A stretch of 64,000 nt of DNA from Brucella grignonensis (GTDB taxonomy: Bacteria > Pseudomonadota > Alphaproteobacteria > Rhizobiales > Rhizobiaceae). Shown piece after piece: positions 55,086-61,104 of this stretch (position 1 is the stretch's first letter; each line of letters opens with the position of its first letter). A program made the position numbers and the translations under genes. The stretch lies in NCBI RefSeq assembly GCF_002252505.1, contig NZ_NNRL01000164.1:124001-188000 (forward strand). Reading direction: 5' to 3'. The notes under the pieces were generated by a model. It was not told the origin of the DNA. It saw only the letters and a program-made list of their open reading frames with translations, and ran no database searches.

Positions 55086-56402
55086 ATGAGCAATGCGGCG
55101 GCAGCAAAATCTGACGGCAAGCAGAAGGTATCTAGCAAGGCACCTTCTTCTGGCCCATTCTCAGCCTATGAGCGGATGATCGCATGGCGCTATTTGCGAG
55201 CGCGCCGCCGCGAGACGTTTATCTCGGTCATTGCCGGTTTTTCTTTCACTGGCATCATGCTTGGTGTTGCCACGCTCATCATCGTTATGGCGGTGATGAA
55301 CGGGTTTCGTGCCGAGCTTTTGAACCGCATTCTGGGTATCAATGGCCACCTCATCATGCAGCCGATGGATCGGCCGCTTGATGATTATGCGAGCCTTATT
55401 CAGCGCATAGATGGGATCAAAGGCGTCCAGTTCGCCATTCCTGTGGTCGAGGGGCAAGCCCTCGTTCAGGGTAATATCGGTGCTGGCACCGGTGCATTGG
55501 TACGTGGTCTTCGCGAAGAGGATCTTGACAAGCTCAAGCTTGTTTCCACGAATGTAAAACAGGGCACATTGAAGGGCTTCGATCAGAGTGGCGGCGTGGC
55601 AATCGGCACCCGTATGGCTGAGAATCTTGGCCTTTCGATCGGTGATTCACTGCGCGTTATCTCACCCGATGGTGACGTCACGCCTTTTGGCGTCAATCCA
55701 CGCGTGAAAGCCTATCCGATTGTTGCAATCTTTGAGATCGGCATGTCGGAATATGATGCGTCAATTGTCATGATGCCGCTTTCAGAGGCGCAGCTTTTCT
55801 TCAATCAGGAAGGGAAGGTGCAGTCGCTGGAGATATTCGTCGATAACCCCGACAAGGTGGATGCGATGCGTGCGCCTGTCGAGGAAGTAGCGGCCCGCCA
55901 GATTTCTCTGGTGGATTGGCGCCAGCGTAACCAGACTTTCTTCTCGGCGCTACAGGTCGAGCGCAATGTCATGTTCATGATCCTGACGCTGATCGTGCTC
56001 GTTGCCGCGCTCAATATCATCTCCGGTCTCATCATGCTTGTGAAGGACAAGGGACACGATATCGCTATCCTGCGCACCATGGGTGCAACGCGTGGCGCGG
56101 TGATGCGTATATTCCTTATGACTGGTGCTGCTATTGGTGTGACGGGAACGGTTGCAGGCGTCATCTTAGGTGTTGTGGTGTGCCTCAATGTCGAGCGTCT
56201 GCGTGAGTTCTTCTCCTGGCTTTCGGGCACGACATTGTTCAATCCGGAACTTTATTTCCTGAGCACGCTACCTGCGAAGATGGATGTTGGTGAAACATTG
56301 TCCGTCATAGCAATGGCTTTGATCCTTTCTTTTATTGCCACCATTTTGCCGGCATGGCGCGCTGCCAAGCTCGATCCGGTCGAAGCCCTGAGGTATGAAT
56401 AA
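55086..56402 (+). CDS. lolC: lipoprotein-releasing ABC transporter permease (LolC/E family)
   Basis: 438 residues, four membrane segments with a large periplasmic domain between TM1 and TM2 (MacB/FtsX type). Extracts outer-membrane lipoproteins from the inner membrane. The N-terminal [34 protein letters not shown] and the [30 protein letters not shown] coupling helix are typical. Only one permease is present, so a homodimeric LolCE-type (LolF) complex is likely. Starts 2 bases after proS and overlaps lolD by one base. Confidence 0.94.
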
Positions 56403-57085
56403 TGGCGGCTGAAGTCATTCTGCGTCTGGAAAATGTCAGCCGCGCCTATAAGGAAGCTGATCGCGAACTCGTTATTCTCAAGGACGCGAACTTTACACTG
56501 CGTCGCGGCGAGATGGTTGCGCTCGTTGCACCATCCGGTGCGGGCAAGTCGACTTTGCTGCATACAGCCGGTCTGCTTGAGCGCCCGGACAGCGGCGACG
56601 TGATTCTTGATGATCGTTCATGTGGTGGTCTGTCGGAAGACGAGCGCACCGCGGTTCGTCGCAACGATGTCGGCTTTGTCTATCAGTTCCATCATCTGTT
56701 GCCGGAATTTTCAGCCCTTGAAAATGTGATGATGCCGCAAATGATCCGTGGCTTGCCGCAGAAGGCAGCATCAGTACGTGCACAGCAGCTGCTCGATTAT
56801 ATGAAGATCGGCAAGCGTGCATCCCATCGTCCGTCAGAGCTTTCCGGTGGTGAGCAGCAGCGCGTCGCGATTGCGCGTGCGGTTGCCAATGCGCCTCTGG
56901 TATTGTTGGCCGATGAGCCGACAGGCAATCTCGATCCGACGACATCGTCTTATGTCTTCGGTGCGCTGGAAGCACTTGTGCGTCAGTCGGGCCTTGCAGC
57001 TTTGATTGCAACGCATAACCACGAACTGGCCCGCCGTATGGATCGTCGTGTGACGCTTCGCGAAGGCAAGGTCGTCGACGTCTAA
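56402..57085 (+). CDS. lolD: lipoprotein-releasing system ATP-binding protein
   Basis: 227 residues. ABC ATPase: Walker [10 protein letters not shown] (43-51), Q-loop [20 protein letters not shown] (the LolD/MacB-type sequence), signature [14 protein letters not shown], Walker [12 protein letters not shown], switch His in ATHNHELA. Drives the LolC-type permease; translationally coupled to it. Confidence 0.96.
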
Positions 57086-57092
57086 TCAGCCA

Positions 57093-57134
57093 CATATCAA
57101 GGGGCGATGCGCAAAGCGCTCGCGCCTTGATATG
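57093..57134. terminator. long hairpin after lolD, probable 3' end of proS-lolC-lolD
   Basis: CATATCAAGG / CCTTGATATG (perfect 10 bp) around an inner GC-rich stem-loop, 8 bases after the lolD stop. It lacks a T run, so it is either a Rho-type 3' end stabiliser or a weak terminator. Confidence 0.5.
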
Positions 57135-57256
57135 TAGACAAAACCTTCCCCTCATATCTCGTTTGCTCAACGCCGGTGGCCATGCCGCTGGTGATCGCAC
57201 GTTTATTTTTCGTAAACCTTAAATACATGCATCTACAAGAACGGGTGTTGACTTTG

Positions 57257-57271
57257 GAACAAAAATGGAAC
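57257..57271 (+). promoter_or_regulatory. LexA (SOS) box, GAAC-N7-GAAC
   Basis: GAACAAAAATGGAAC is an exact direct repeat GAAC-N7-GAAC, the LexA site of alphaproteobacteria (established for Rhizobium, Rhodobacter and Caulobacter). TTGACT at 57248-57253 would be the -35, so the box would cover the promoter spacer and -10 region, the position expected for repression. The microprotein start is at 57310. No other exact match was noticed in the window, although I could not scan exhaustively. Confidence 0.65.
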
Positions 57272-57309
57272 AAAAAATAAACATACGTGAACAAAGAGGA
57301 GTTATTCCA

Positions 57310-57396
57310 ATGACCGATCTCGTCTACGACGTTTTGTCTTTCGTCTCCGTCAGCCTGTTCGTTGCCACTTTCGCCATCTGGGTAAGTGTAATCTGA
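57310..57396 (+). CDS. putative SOS-inducible 28-residue membrane microprotein (SidA-like in type)
   Basis: 28 codons, ATG to TGA. GAGGAG lies 8 bases before the ATG, a near-ideal ribosome binding site. Product MTDLVYDVLSFVSVSLFVAT plus FAIWVSVI: an acidic N-terminus (Asp3, Asp7) and one continuous hydrophobic span to the C-terminus. A LexA-type box lies 38 bases upstream. Caulobacter SidA, 29 residues and also single-span, is a LexA-controlled inhibitor that binds FtsW/FtsN (known from literature); similarity in sequence was not tested, so the link is by size, topology and control only. A small hairpin, GGGTTC/GAACCC, follows the stop. Confidence 0.6.
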   Translation: MTDLVYDVLSFVSVSLFVATFAIWVSVI

Positions 57397-57407
57397 AAAC
57401 GTGATAA

Positions 57408-57425
57408 GGGTTCTTCTGTGAACCC
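57408..57425 (+). terminator. small hairpin after the microprotein gene
   Basis: GGGTTC, TTCTGT loop, GAACCC, 12 bases after the stop, with no T run. Weak terminator candidate. A nested inverted repeat (CCGGGTGC.../GCCCGG with inner CTCATT/ATGAG, 57509-57543) lies further on before dnaE. Confidence 0.3.
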
Positions 57426-57615
57426 CGTTGATTGTAACGACCGTCGCTCTGGACTTCGTTGCCGTATTCCCCGAAACTGACGTAGTGGGCGATAAGAGTC
57501 GCCCGTTACCGGGTGCAGCTCTCATTGAATGAGACGTGCCCGGACGGCGCTGGAACATGATTTCGCTATCATGGTATGGCAGTGCTTTCAGCTCTGCATA
57601 GATCGGGGAAATAGA

Positions 57616-60600
57616 ATGAGTGATACAGCAAGCATTGCAGCGGGCGAGGGCAAGTCGTCACCTCGTTTCGTCCATTTGCGGGTACATTCTGCCTATTCCT
57701 TGCTTGAAGGCGCATTGCCGGTCGGCAAGATCATCAAACAGGCGATTGCCGATGAAGCACCGGCCATCGCGATAACTGATAGCAATAATCTTTTTGGTGC
57801 CCTGGAATTTGCGCAGAAGGCGTCGAAAGACGGTTTGCAGCCAATTATCGGTTGTCAGCTGGACATAGGGTTTGGCGATCACAACGATAACAGTCGTAGT
57901 GCCAATCGGCGATTGGTTCTCGATTTGGCACCTGTCGTTTTGCTCGCTTCGACCGAAAAGGGCTACGCCAATATCGTAAGGCTCGTCAGCCGTGCCTTCC
58001 TTGATACGCCGTCGGGCGATCCGGTCCATATCGAAGCAAGCTGGCTGCCGGGCTTGTCCGATGACGTCATTGTACTTTCGGGTGGACAGCTCGGTCCAAT
58101 CGGACGGGCTTTTGCTGCAGACCGCCCGGACCGTGCAGAAGCACGTCTGGCGTTTTTGAAAGAAGCTTTTGGTAATCGGCTATATGTCGAATTGCAGCGA
58201 CAATCCGGCTATGACCGTGCGCTTGAGGCGAAGACTGTAGAACTCGCCTATGCGATGGATTTGCCGCTTGTTGCAACCAATGAAGCCTTCTTTCTCAAAG
58301 CGGAAGACTTCGAGGCACATGACGCGCTGCTTGCTATCGCCGAAGGGCAAATCCTTTCCAATGATGATCGCCGCCGTCTGACACCGGATCATCATCTCAA
58401 AAGCCGCGCAGAAATGGCGGCTCTGTTTGCAGACTTGCCGGAAGCGCTCGAAAACACGATCGAAATTGCCGAGCGTTGCAGCTGGTTCACGCAGACGCGT
58501 CAGCCCATTCTGCCGCGCTTTACTGGTGAGTCTGATGATCCAGAGGCAGGTATTCAGGCCGAAGCAGAAGAGCTGGCCCGTCAGGCGCGTGAAGGCCTGA
58601 AGATGCGGCTGGAAACTGCCGGTCTTGCCGAAGGATATACGGAAGAACAATATGCTGAACGTCTCGATTACGAGATTGGCATTATCACCCGCATGAAGTT
58701 CCCGGGTTACTTCCTGATCGTTGCAGACTTTATCAAATGGGCGAAGTTGCACGGCATTCCAGTGGGGCCGGGACGTGGTTCAGGTGCCGGTTCTCTCGTC
58801 GCTTACGCATTGACCATTACGGACGTCGACCCACTGAGGTTTTCGCTGCTGTTCGAGCGCTTTCTTAATCCAGACCGCGTATCGATGCCCGACTTCGATA
58901 TCGATTTCTGTCAGGATCGTCGTGAAGAAGTCATTCGCTACGTGCAGGAAAAATACGGGCGCGATCAGGTCGCACAGATCATAACTTTCGGAACGCTTCA
59001 GGCGCGCGCTGTGCTGCGCGACGTTGGGCGTGTTCTCGAAATGCCTTACGGACAGGTAGACCGTCTCTGCAAGCTGGTGCCGCAAAACCCGGCCAACCCT
59101 GTTTCTCTGGCGCAGGCTATTGAGACAGAGCCGAAAATCAATGAAGAGCGTGAGAAAGAACCGGTTGTCGGTCGTCTTCTTGATATGGCGCTGAAACTCG
59201 AAGGCCTCTACCGTCACGCCTCTACGCACGCTGCCGGTATCGTGATTGGTGATCGGCCTCTTTCCGAACTCGTGCCAATGTATCGCGACCCGCGTTCGGA
59301 TATGCCGGTTACGCAGTTCAACATGAAGTGGGTCGAGCAGGCGGGACTGGTCAAATTCGACTTTCTTGGTCTCAAAACGCTCACCGTGCTGGAAACAGCC
59401 GTCAAGCTTGTTGCACGTAAAGGCATTGAAATTGACCTTACGCGTCTGCCGTTCGATGACGCACTGACTTATGAAATGCTTTCGCGCGGCGAAACCGTCG
59501 GCGTGTTCCAGGTTGAAAGTGCGGGCATGCGCAAGGCGCTGCTCGGCATGCGTCCTGATCGGATCGAAGACATCATTGCGCTTGTAGCGCTTTATCGTCC
59601 GGGTCCGATGGAGAACATCCCGACCTATAATGCGCGCAAGAATGGTGAGGAGGAAATCGCCTCCATTCACCCGAAGATCGACGGCCTTATCAAGGAAACG
59701 CAGGGCGTTATCGTCTATCAGGAACAGGTTATGCAGATCGCGCAGGTGCTTTCGGGCTATTCGCTCGGTGAAGCTGACCTTCTGCGTCGCGCGATGGGTA
59801 AGAAGATCCGTGAGGAGATGGACAAGCAGCGCGTTCGTTTCGTCGATGGTGCGATTGAAGGCGGTGTCGACAAGGCGCAGGCGAATATGATTTTCGACCT
59901 GTTGGCCAAGTTCGCTGACTATGGCTTCAATAAGTCTCATGCAGCAGCCTACGCAATCGTGTCTTACCAGACCGCCTACATGAAGGCACACTATCCGGTC
60001 GAGTTCCTTGCGGCTTCGATGACCTACGATATGTCCAATGCCGACAAACTTAACGATTTCCGCCGTGAGGCCAATCGTCTGGGTATTGACGTCGTGACGC
60101 CATCCGTCATGACTTCCTTCCGCCCGTTTGAAGTTGGCGAAAAAAAGATTTTCTATTCGCTGGCCGCGATTAAAGGCGTTGGCGAAGCGGCAGTGGACCA
60201 CATCGTCGATGTACGGGCCGAGAAGCCTTTTGAAAGTCTTGAGGATTTCTGCGAGCGTATTGATCCAAAAACTGTCAATCGACGTGTGATGGAAAGCTTG
60301 ATCAATGCGGGCGCGCTCGATTGCTTCGGACGTGATCGAGCCGCAATGAGCGCGGGCATGGATCGCATCATGGGCTTTGCGCAGCGCACACAGGAAAATG
60401 CGGCCAGCGGTCAGTCCGACATTTTCGGTCTTTCGGGAGCGCCGAAGGAACAGTTGATCCTACCACAGGCTGCCCCCTGGTTGCCGTCTGAAAAGCTGCA
60501 TCGTGAATTTCAGGCGGTGGGCTTTTATCTGTCCGCTCATCCGCTGGACGAATATCGTCAGGTTCTCGATCGTATGCGCGTTCAGAGTTGGGCAGATTTC

Positions 60601-61104
60601 TCAGCCGCTGTGAAGCGTGGCGCAAATGCGGGACGTCTGGCAGGCACCGTCACCACGCGTCAGGAACGCAAAACGCGCACTGGCAACAAGATGGGTATCG
60701 TACAGCTCTCCGATGCCAGTGGTCAGTTTGAGGCCGTACTTTTCTCGGAAGGTCTTGCCCAGTATCGCGATCTTCTCGAAAGCGGTAAATCGGTGGTCAT
60801 TACGGTCGCCGCTGAAAACCGTCCGGAAGGCATAGGCTTGCGTATCCAGACGGTACAATCGCTGGAGGATGAGGCATGTCGGATGCAGAAGGCGCTCCGC
60901 CTATATCTCCGCTCCGCTGAAGCTTTGAAGCACATCGTGCCGCATTTCAATACGCGAGGCGATGGTCAGGTGAGCTTTATCGTGATCAAGGAAGAAGGCC
61001 AGCGCGAAGTTGAGATCGAACTTCCGCACCGCTATCGTGTCAGCCCACAGATCGCCAGTGCCATGAAGGCAATTCCCGGTGTCGTGGAAGTCGAACTGGT
61101 TTAG
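57616..61104 (+). CDS. dnaE: DNA polymerase III alpha subunit
   Basis: 1162 residues, replicative polymerase. N-terminal PHP domain (FVHLRVHSAYSLLEGALPVG, about 20-280), palm with the catalytic aspartates in PDFDIDFCQDRR (425-436), PGRGSGAGSLVAYAL, fingers with RRAMGKKIREEMDKQR and FADYGFNKSHAAAYAIVSYQTAYMKAHYP, then helix-hairpin-helix and an OB fold (about 1000-1080, RLAGTVTTRQERKTRTGNKMG). Full length for DnaE1 and not the DnaE2 mutagenesis type. ATG 57616 is chosen for MSDTASIAAGEG; the frame is open to 57529. The stop codon TAG belongs to an abutting repeat. Confidence 0.96.
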   Translation: MSDTASIAAGEGKSSPRFVHLRVHSAYSLLEGALPVGKIIKQAIADEAPAIAITDSNNLFGALEFAQKASKDGLQPIIGCQLDIGFGDHNDNSRSANRRLVLDLAPVVLLASTEKGYANIVRLVSRAFLDTPSGDPVHIEASWLPGLSDDVIVLSGGQLGPIGRAFAADRPDRAEARLAFLKEAFGNRLYVELQRQSGYDRALEAKTVELAYAMDLPLVATNEAFFLKAEDFEAHDALLAIAEGQILSNDDRRRLTPDHHLKSRAEMAALFADLPEALENTIEIAERCSWFTQTRQPILPRFTGESDDPEAGIQAEAEELARQAREGLKMRLETAGLAEGYTEEQYAERLDYEIGIITRMKFPGYFLIVADFIKWAKLHGIPVGPGRGSGAGSLVAYALTITDVDPLRFSLLFERFLNPDRVSMPDFDIDFCQDRREEVIRYVQEKYGRDQVAQIITFGTLQARAVLRDVGRVLEMPYGQVDRLCKLVPQNPANPVSLAQAIETEPKINEEREKEPVVGRLLDMALKLEGLYRHASTHAAGIVIGDRPLSELVPMYRDPRSDMPVTQFNMKWVEQAGLVKFDFLGLKTLTVLETAVKLVARKGIEIDLTRLPFDDALTYEMLSRGETVGVFQVESAGMRKALLGMRPDRIEDIIALVALYRPGPMENIPTYNARKNGEEEIASIHPKIDGLIKETQGVIVYQEQVMQIAQVLSGYSLGEADLLRRAMGKKIREEMDKQRVRFVDGAIEGGVDKAQANMIFDLLAKFADYGFNKSHAAAYAIVSYQTAYMKAHYPVEFLAASMTYDMSNADKLNDFRREANRLGIDVVTPSVMTSFRPFEVGEKKIFYSLAAIKGVGEAAVDHIVDVRAEKPFESLEDFCERIDPKTVNRRVMESLINAGALDCFGRDRAAMSAGMDRIMGFAQRTQENAASGQSDIFGLSGAPKEQLILPQAAPWLPSEKLHREFQAVGFYLSAHPLDEYRQVLDRMRVQSWADFSAAVKRGANAGRLAGTVTTRQERKTRTGNKMGIVQLSDASGQFEAVLFSEGLAQYRDLLESGKSVVITVAAENRPEGIGLRIQTVQSLEDEACRMQKALRLYLRSAEALKHIVPHFNTRGDGQVSFIVIKEEGQREVEIELPHRYRVSPQIASAMKAIPGVVEVELV

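Follow-up and report, generated by a model that had tools for sequence, protein, structure and literature searches.

A 28-codon gene upstream of dnaE in Brucella grignonensis probably belongs to the SidA family of SOS division inhibitors

We analysed a 64,000-nucleotide (nt) stretch of the Brucella grignonensis genome (contig NZ_NNRL01000164.1 of assembly GCF_002252505.1, positions 124,001 to 188,000; hereafter the window), with a focus on a very short gene that lies between lolD and dnaE. Coordinates are those of the window, and all the features given lie on the + strand. Upstream, a lolD-like ATP-binding cassette (ABC) transporter gene (56402–57085; Pfam ABC_tran, E 3.8e-31) provides the context. 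It was named from its position after a MacB/FtsX-type permease gene (55086–56402, Pfam) and from an earlier reading of this DNA made from its letters alone (the sequence-only reading). Downstream, an open frame at 57529–61104 contains dnaE, the gene for the DNA polymerase III alpha subunit, which was named from its conserved N-terminus and from the same earlier reading; we chose 57616 as its start, which places the gene at 57616–61104. Between these two genes, a probable -35 element, TTGACT (57248–57253), stands just 5' of a LexA-type box, GAACAAAAATGGAAC (GAAC-N7-GAAC, 57257–57271), and a ribosome binding site, GAGGAG (57296–57301), ends 8 nt before the ATG of a 28-codon gene (57310–57396, stop included). 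The first three elements were read directly from the sequence; the gene is defined by its conservation and its pattern of substitution. Its product, MTDLVYDVLSFVSVSLFVATFAIWVSVI, has a single hydrophobic stretch from residue 8 to the end, a predicted membrane span. The sequence-only reading had described the same box, ribosome site and frame as an SOS-controlled membrane microprotein, and its coordinates and description of them hold. We propose that the gene probably belongs to the SidA family, which is known from Caulobacter as an SOS-induced inhibitor of cell division.

The start codon deserves a comment. In the list of open reading frames (ORFs), the frame is given as 43 residues, counted from an ATG in the same frame that falls within the box (57265). 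We rejected this longer reading since its start is not conserved: same-genus relatives whose box reads GAACAAAAATAGAAC lack an ATG at that place, and the 28-codon start is therefore the conserved one. A scan for consensus promoters found no complete sigma-70 site at the promoter of the micro-ORF, and we leave the -10 element without a position.

To describe conservation within the genus, we used 35 genomes, that of B. grignonensis included. The 28-codon frame and the position of its stop are intact in all 35, and so is the exact box, at -52 to -54 from the start. GAGGAG is kept in 34 of the 35, with GAAGAG in the remaining one, and TTGAC is found in the promoters of 34. Among the 27 distinct sequences, the ratio of nonsynonymous to synonymous polymorphism (pN/pS) is 0.106 in the frame, compared with 1.1 and 3.5 in the frames shifted by one and two nt and 0.75 in the antisense frame. 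Variation at codon positions 1, 2 and 3 is 0.078, 0.011 and 0.217, and it is about 0.5 in the 84 nt past the stop. The frame at 57310–57396 is a real gene under purifying selection. The sequence-only reading had looked to two kinds of evidence, conservation of frame, ribosome site and box in relatives and a Ka/Ks-type comparison of the codons, and both come out in its favour.

The earlier reading had also confined the gene to Brucellaceae, and this restriction does not survive: the gene extends through the GTDB-style family, into other families of the order and into Caulobacterales. Outside the genus, a search with the single peptide gave weak matches in 15 of 25 family genera. At E<=0.1, a 16-row profile matched 261 of the 297 family genomes surveyed and reached 101 of 109 genera, some of the weakest matches perhaps by chance; the remaining 36 genomes had no match at this threshold. 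We then read 60 further family loci, taken from the better-scoring listed profile matches, a choice that favours clean cases and in which several genera are repeated. The frame is exactly 28 residues long in all 60, and a box stands 35–54 nt before the start in every one of them. It is exact in 55 and within one mismatch in 60, as against 0 and 3 in 160-nt downstream control stretches. In 45 of the 60, TTGAC occurs in the preceding 100 nt, and in many of them a third GAAC 11 nt further on creates two overlapping boxes. Elsewhere in the survey, three loci that need other starts or lack an exact near box (L043, L047 and L061) were omitted from the box counts. This degree of conservation points to SOS control through the LexA-type box, as predicted from the single sequence. 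The simplest alternative, that a chance frame lies beside a chance GAAC repeat, could appeal to the chance-level frequency of the box motif alone (see below), but it is refuted by the intact frames, the low pN/pS and the fixed-distance box within the genus and by the frames and boxes beyond it, and we give it practically no credence. The case for the gene and its box is made by conservation, beyond chance, and not by the motif alone.

Several of the 36 unmatched family genomes are small (1.1–2.0 Mb), and the gene may have been lost with genome reduction; two genomes of 1.6–2.4 Mb do match, weakly or well.

Beyond the family, loci were anchored on dnaE. Among 27 such loci of the order but outside the family, the exact box is present in 23, and the complete arrangement of box, ribosome site and hydrophobic frame of 24–50 residues in 20; in dinucleotide shuffles of these loci (20 per locus), the box appeared in 0.7% and the whole arrangement never. 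Nine order peptides score against the family profile far above their own shuffles (p 0.003, the minimum possible with 300 shuffles). In other orders of the class, a box, ribosome site and hydrophobic frame occur together in 3 of 21 usable loci, the regions of 8 others in the set of 29 being too short. Two weak matches of the single peptide within the order (G069 and G092) fall inside frames of 425–477 residues; we treated them as chance and left the loci at the same places (L060 and L062) out of the counts. The gene is older than the family.

The Caulobacter-like family was reached with CtrA as finder and then through 80 named loci, which include C. vibrioides OR37 and T5M6, C. segnis and C. 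zeae. In 106 of 110 Caulobacterales dnaE loci, a relative of 28–31 residues (29 in 90 of them) stands upstream of dnaE, a count that is not blind since the length and motif filter includes the motif; the other four loci contain no frame that passes it. A blind count of box, ribosome site and hydrophobic frame gave 12 of 30 and 31 of 79 loci. The two Caulobacterales sets overlap in species, their loci are not independent, and they hold 84 distinct peptides. Within 120 nt, the box is exact in 74 of the 106 and has at most one mismatch in 105, and the median distance from the frame to the first aligned DnaE residue is 35.5 nt.

SidA of Caulobacter is a 29-residue inner-membrane protein under LexA control that binds FtsW and FtsN and arrests division, and mutations in ftsW or ftsI suppress its action (PMC4211646). 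Its locus tag is CCNA_02004 (PMC11034885). In the older tag series, lexA is CC1902 and dnaE is CC1926 (PMC1839093), and lexA is also CCNA_01979 (PMC11535069); because the two lexA tags differ by an offset of 77, dnaE should be CCNA_02003, adjoining sidA. The opposite neighbour of sidA, CCNA_02005, encodes an inosine-uridine nucleoside hydrolase (PMC3667746). In C. vibrioides OR37, a nucleoside hydrolase gene (Pfam IU_nuc_hydro) indeed adjoins the 29-codon frame on its upstream side, in divergent orientation, and the same arrangement is seen in 19 of the 80 named loci, among them both C. vibrioides records. These locus tags and neighbours identify the 29-codon frame upstream of Caulobacterales dnaE as sidA. 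The B. grignonensis gene thus occupies the position of Caulobacter sidA, upstream of dnaE, which fits the SidA-type checkpoint that the sequence-only reading had suggested.

The sequences of the two groups are also suggestive of a link. Profile–profile alignment of family and Caulobacterales peptides with hhalign gave a probability of 93.5 (E 2.2e-7 for that one comparison) in the same register from residue 1, NA1000 SidA not being among the sequences, and the best offset is 0 for 75 of the 84 Caulobacterales peptides. In the single-sequence comparison, identity is about 39% over 18 aligned columns. Positions common to both groups are M1, D/E7, A/S10, F/L11, S13 and F17. In both, conserved residues cluster on a single face of the helix; of 13 angles tried, 100 degrees gives the largest conservation moment, with permutation p values of 0.015 for 77 family peptides and 0.012 for 70 Caulobacterales 29-mers. 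Such a face suggests packing against a membrane partner.

A number of results weigh against the assignment to the SidA family under LexA control. Alignment of the profile with a single 29-mer gave an hhalign probability of 32. Against composition-preserving shuffles, 57 of the 84 peptides reach p<=0.05 and 15 reach p<=0.01, with a median of 0.03; among unrelated membrane segments from the window, 9.6% score as well as the median peptide. The N-terminal charge differs, with D3 in most of the family and R3 and R6 in Caulobacterales. By sequence alone, family and Caulobacterales are tied weakly. At E<=0.001, the family profile matched just the own genome and one other among 385 genomes of the class, and because of this result we adopted dnaE-anchored synteny. 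The box motif, too, is not enriched: shuffles predict 2.06 sites of bare GAACN7GAAC in the window, which has one, the genome contains 174 where a reversed-pattern control gives 153, and a stricter A/T-rich version, GAACAWWWNNNGAAC, has 8 genome sites against 10 for the control. Because these counts are at chance level in window and genome, the motif by itself is no evidence, and we rejected it as a stand-alone argument. Three of the eight GAACAWWWNNNGAAC sites precede recA, ssb and the micro-ORF locus (SSB identified by Pfam, RecA by eye), and the other five precede genes not recognised as SOS genes. The sites at the recA and ssb promoters show that this type of box serves SOS genes in this genome.

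Our claim of common descent draws on the joint agreement of location, box, length and register and on the intermediate peptides of the order, and not on pairwise similarity. The MTDLVYDVLSFVSVSLFVATFAIWVSVI gene and Caulobacter SidA (CCNA_02004) have in common a tiny single-span product (28 and 29 residues), an upstream GAACN7GAAC box, a place immediately 5' of dnaE in the same orientation and the register M1-[DE]7-[AS]10-[LF]11-S13-F17. They differ in that the B. grignonensis peptide is acidic and SidA basic near residue 3, in their low sequence identity, in the upstream neighbour (lolD here, the nucleoside hydrolase in Caulobacter) and in the distance to dnaE, which is 220 nt for the window gene and a few tens of nt for sidA. 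Position, size and control fit membership in the SidA family, sequence similarity is suggestive, and by analogy the gene would act as a division inhibitor. The sequence-only reading had offered SidA as an analogue; the resemblance stands, but it probably reflects orthology rather than analogy, as locus tags and neighbours identify sidA.

We therefore favour, with a probability of about 0.76, the reading that this is a sidA-family gene, released by LexA, whose peptide holds the late division complex inactive. In the proposed mechanism, LexA would sit on the box at 57257–57271, between the -35 element and the transcription start, and keep the gene off. Upon DNA damage, RecA would trigger self-cleavage of LexA and the mRNA would be made. 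The 28-residue peptide would insert in the inner membrane as one helix, and the face formed by D7, S/A10, S13 and F17 may dock on the late division complex FtsW/FtsI/FtsN. The docked peptide would block the start of septal wall synthesis, so that cells would grow longer but not divide before repair is complete. For the window gene, we infer all of this by analogy with SidA, from the binding of LexA and the induction to the insertion into the membrane, the docking face and the arrest of division.

The neighbourhood of dnaE admits another explanation, in which the micro-ORF is a leader peptide, an upstream ORF (uORF) that sets dnaE expression by attenuation or coupling, SOS control of dnaE being the point of the arrangement. 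Among 33 distinct non-genus places with wide flanks (39 loci, from which 6 second copies were removed by hand), dnaE lies within 1.5 kb in 23. The frame ends very near dnaE in Caulobacterales, as the median distance shows, and the hairpin region between micro-ORF and dnaE is conserved in the genus. In addition, Ribo-seq of Sinorhizobium meliloti 2011, of the same family of bacteria, revealed a translated small ORF, sORF25, in the 5' untranslated region (5'-UTR) of dnaE1 and suggested it as a possible uORF (PMC10117765). Judged by its position, apart from sequence and length, sORF25 is very likely the same gene as ours; the main text of that paper does not use the term SOS (PMC10117765). On the other hand, the gene does not depend on dnaE. 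Frame and exact box stand with neither dnaE (within 1.5 kb) nor lolD at five places in three genera, and beside lolD without dnaE within 1.5 kb at three more. In one genome (G146), the dnaE locus lacks the gene, which is found with two boxes on another contig. Strong amino-acid selection and one conserved helix face also suit a working protein better than a leader. It is unlikely, on this evidence, that the peptide serves as a leader. As to the five relocated copies with a box, the neighbour appears by eye to be carB-like at two places (L036 and L084) and lipB-like at two others (L049 and L074).

If the gene encodes a working membrane peptide, its target could still be something other than the division complex. 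One candidate is a neighbour such as the LolCDE transporter, or an envelope protease. lolD adjoins the micro-ORF in the window and in 19 of the 33 distinct non-genus places, and the similarity to Caulobacterales SidA is weak by sequence alone; yet gene and box persist away from lolD, and in Caulobacter a nucleoside hydrolase gene stands between sidA and lolD. We consider such a target about as improbable as the leader function. Slightly less credible still is a membrane toxin of the TisB/DinQ type, which would be induced by the SOS response, lower the membrane potential and yield persister-like cells. TisB is 29 residues long and DinQ of E. coli is an SOS peptide with a single span, so the size class and SOS control agree. 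No antisense-RNA partner was seen: Rfam gave no match in 56900–57800, a region to which no dedicated antisense search was applied. The conserved face is small polar and aromatic and does not look obviously charged amphipathic, and synteny and register link the peptide to SidA, whose division-protein targets are published.

Other known division inhibitors are set apart by their descriptions. DidA of C. crescentus is likewise a small membrane inhibitor acting on FtsN, FtsW and FtsI, but it has 71 residues, is independent of SOS (controlled by DriD) and lies at another locus. SulA of E. coli, YneA of Bacillus and SosA of Staphylococcus are also SOS-induced division inhibitors, but of other sizes and families, SulA acting on FtsZ in the cytoplasm. 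NCBIfam and Pfam matched none of four peptides searched, although peptides so short can be missed, and PHROGs matched one of the four, a prophage-type peptide, at just E 0.17, with no family for the MTDLVYDVLSFVSVSLFVATFAIWVSVI peptide. Among the matches listed for the open-licence literature, no paper names an SOS division inhibitor for the order of rhizobia, Agrobacterium and Brucella relatives, and none of the open-licence papers retrieved on SidA, SOS, FtsW and Caulobacter has a title or abstract about Hyphomicrobiales.

The DNA between the micro-ORF and dnaE has features of its own. A hairpin, GGGTTCttctgtGAACCC (57408–57425), begins 12 nt past the micro-ORF stop and is terminator-like by scan, with 0.7 such hits expected by chance. 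Beyond it, a stretch at 57430–57510 with CTGGAC and GTCGC motifs is kept in 33 of the 35 same-genus genomes. It could form two 5-bp stems, the best of many windows scanned without a control; RNAalifold gives just -2.75 kcal/mol, yet both sides have changed in 3 of the 9 pairs. Rfam showed no match up to E 1 within 56900–57800. This stretch is possibly a dnaE leader element.

Additional SidA-like frames occur within the genus. In 8 of the 35 genomes, we found 9 of them, of 28–33 residues and the MRDLIEDIAGFVAVS type, each at a separate locus (L037–L040, L044–L046, L050 and L052) and near 1.3–1.6 kb in each. They have no exact LexA box in the 140 nt upstream. In 3 of 3 loci tested, the frame is followed closely by an exonuclease VIII gene (phrog_412), and the frames therefore look like genes of a prophage early region; it is possible that they are phage-borne division inhibitors. 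At L047, in another genus, the frame appears by eye to be near a repressor-like gene. Searches of phage and plasmid collections with the prophage-type peptide and with the window stretch found no counterpart, although the shortness of the queries and the low-complexity filter may hide one. A broader picture, which we hold tentatively and at slightly less than even odds, is that SidA is an ancient SOS brake present in nearly all Hyphomicrobiales and Caulobacterales, long resident beside dnaE, and that prophages of the genus captured it without its LexA box to halt host division on their own schedule.

If our assignment is true, one 28-codon gene that curated family libraries miss would supply the SOS division inhibitor in 261 of the 297 sampled family genomes, and the SidA brake would be far more widespread than Caulobacter. 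The genetics of Caulobacter, including the ftsW and ftsI suppressors, would then be directly transferable to the order. The dozens of diverged SidA variants would form a natural alignment, in which M1, D/E7, A/S10, S13 and F17 are candidate FtsW-binding residues. The case would also illustrate that a known regulator can seem lineage-specific merely because tiny genes evade annotation and sequence search.
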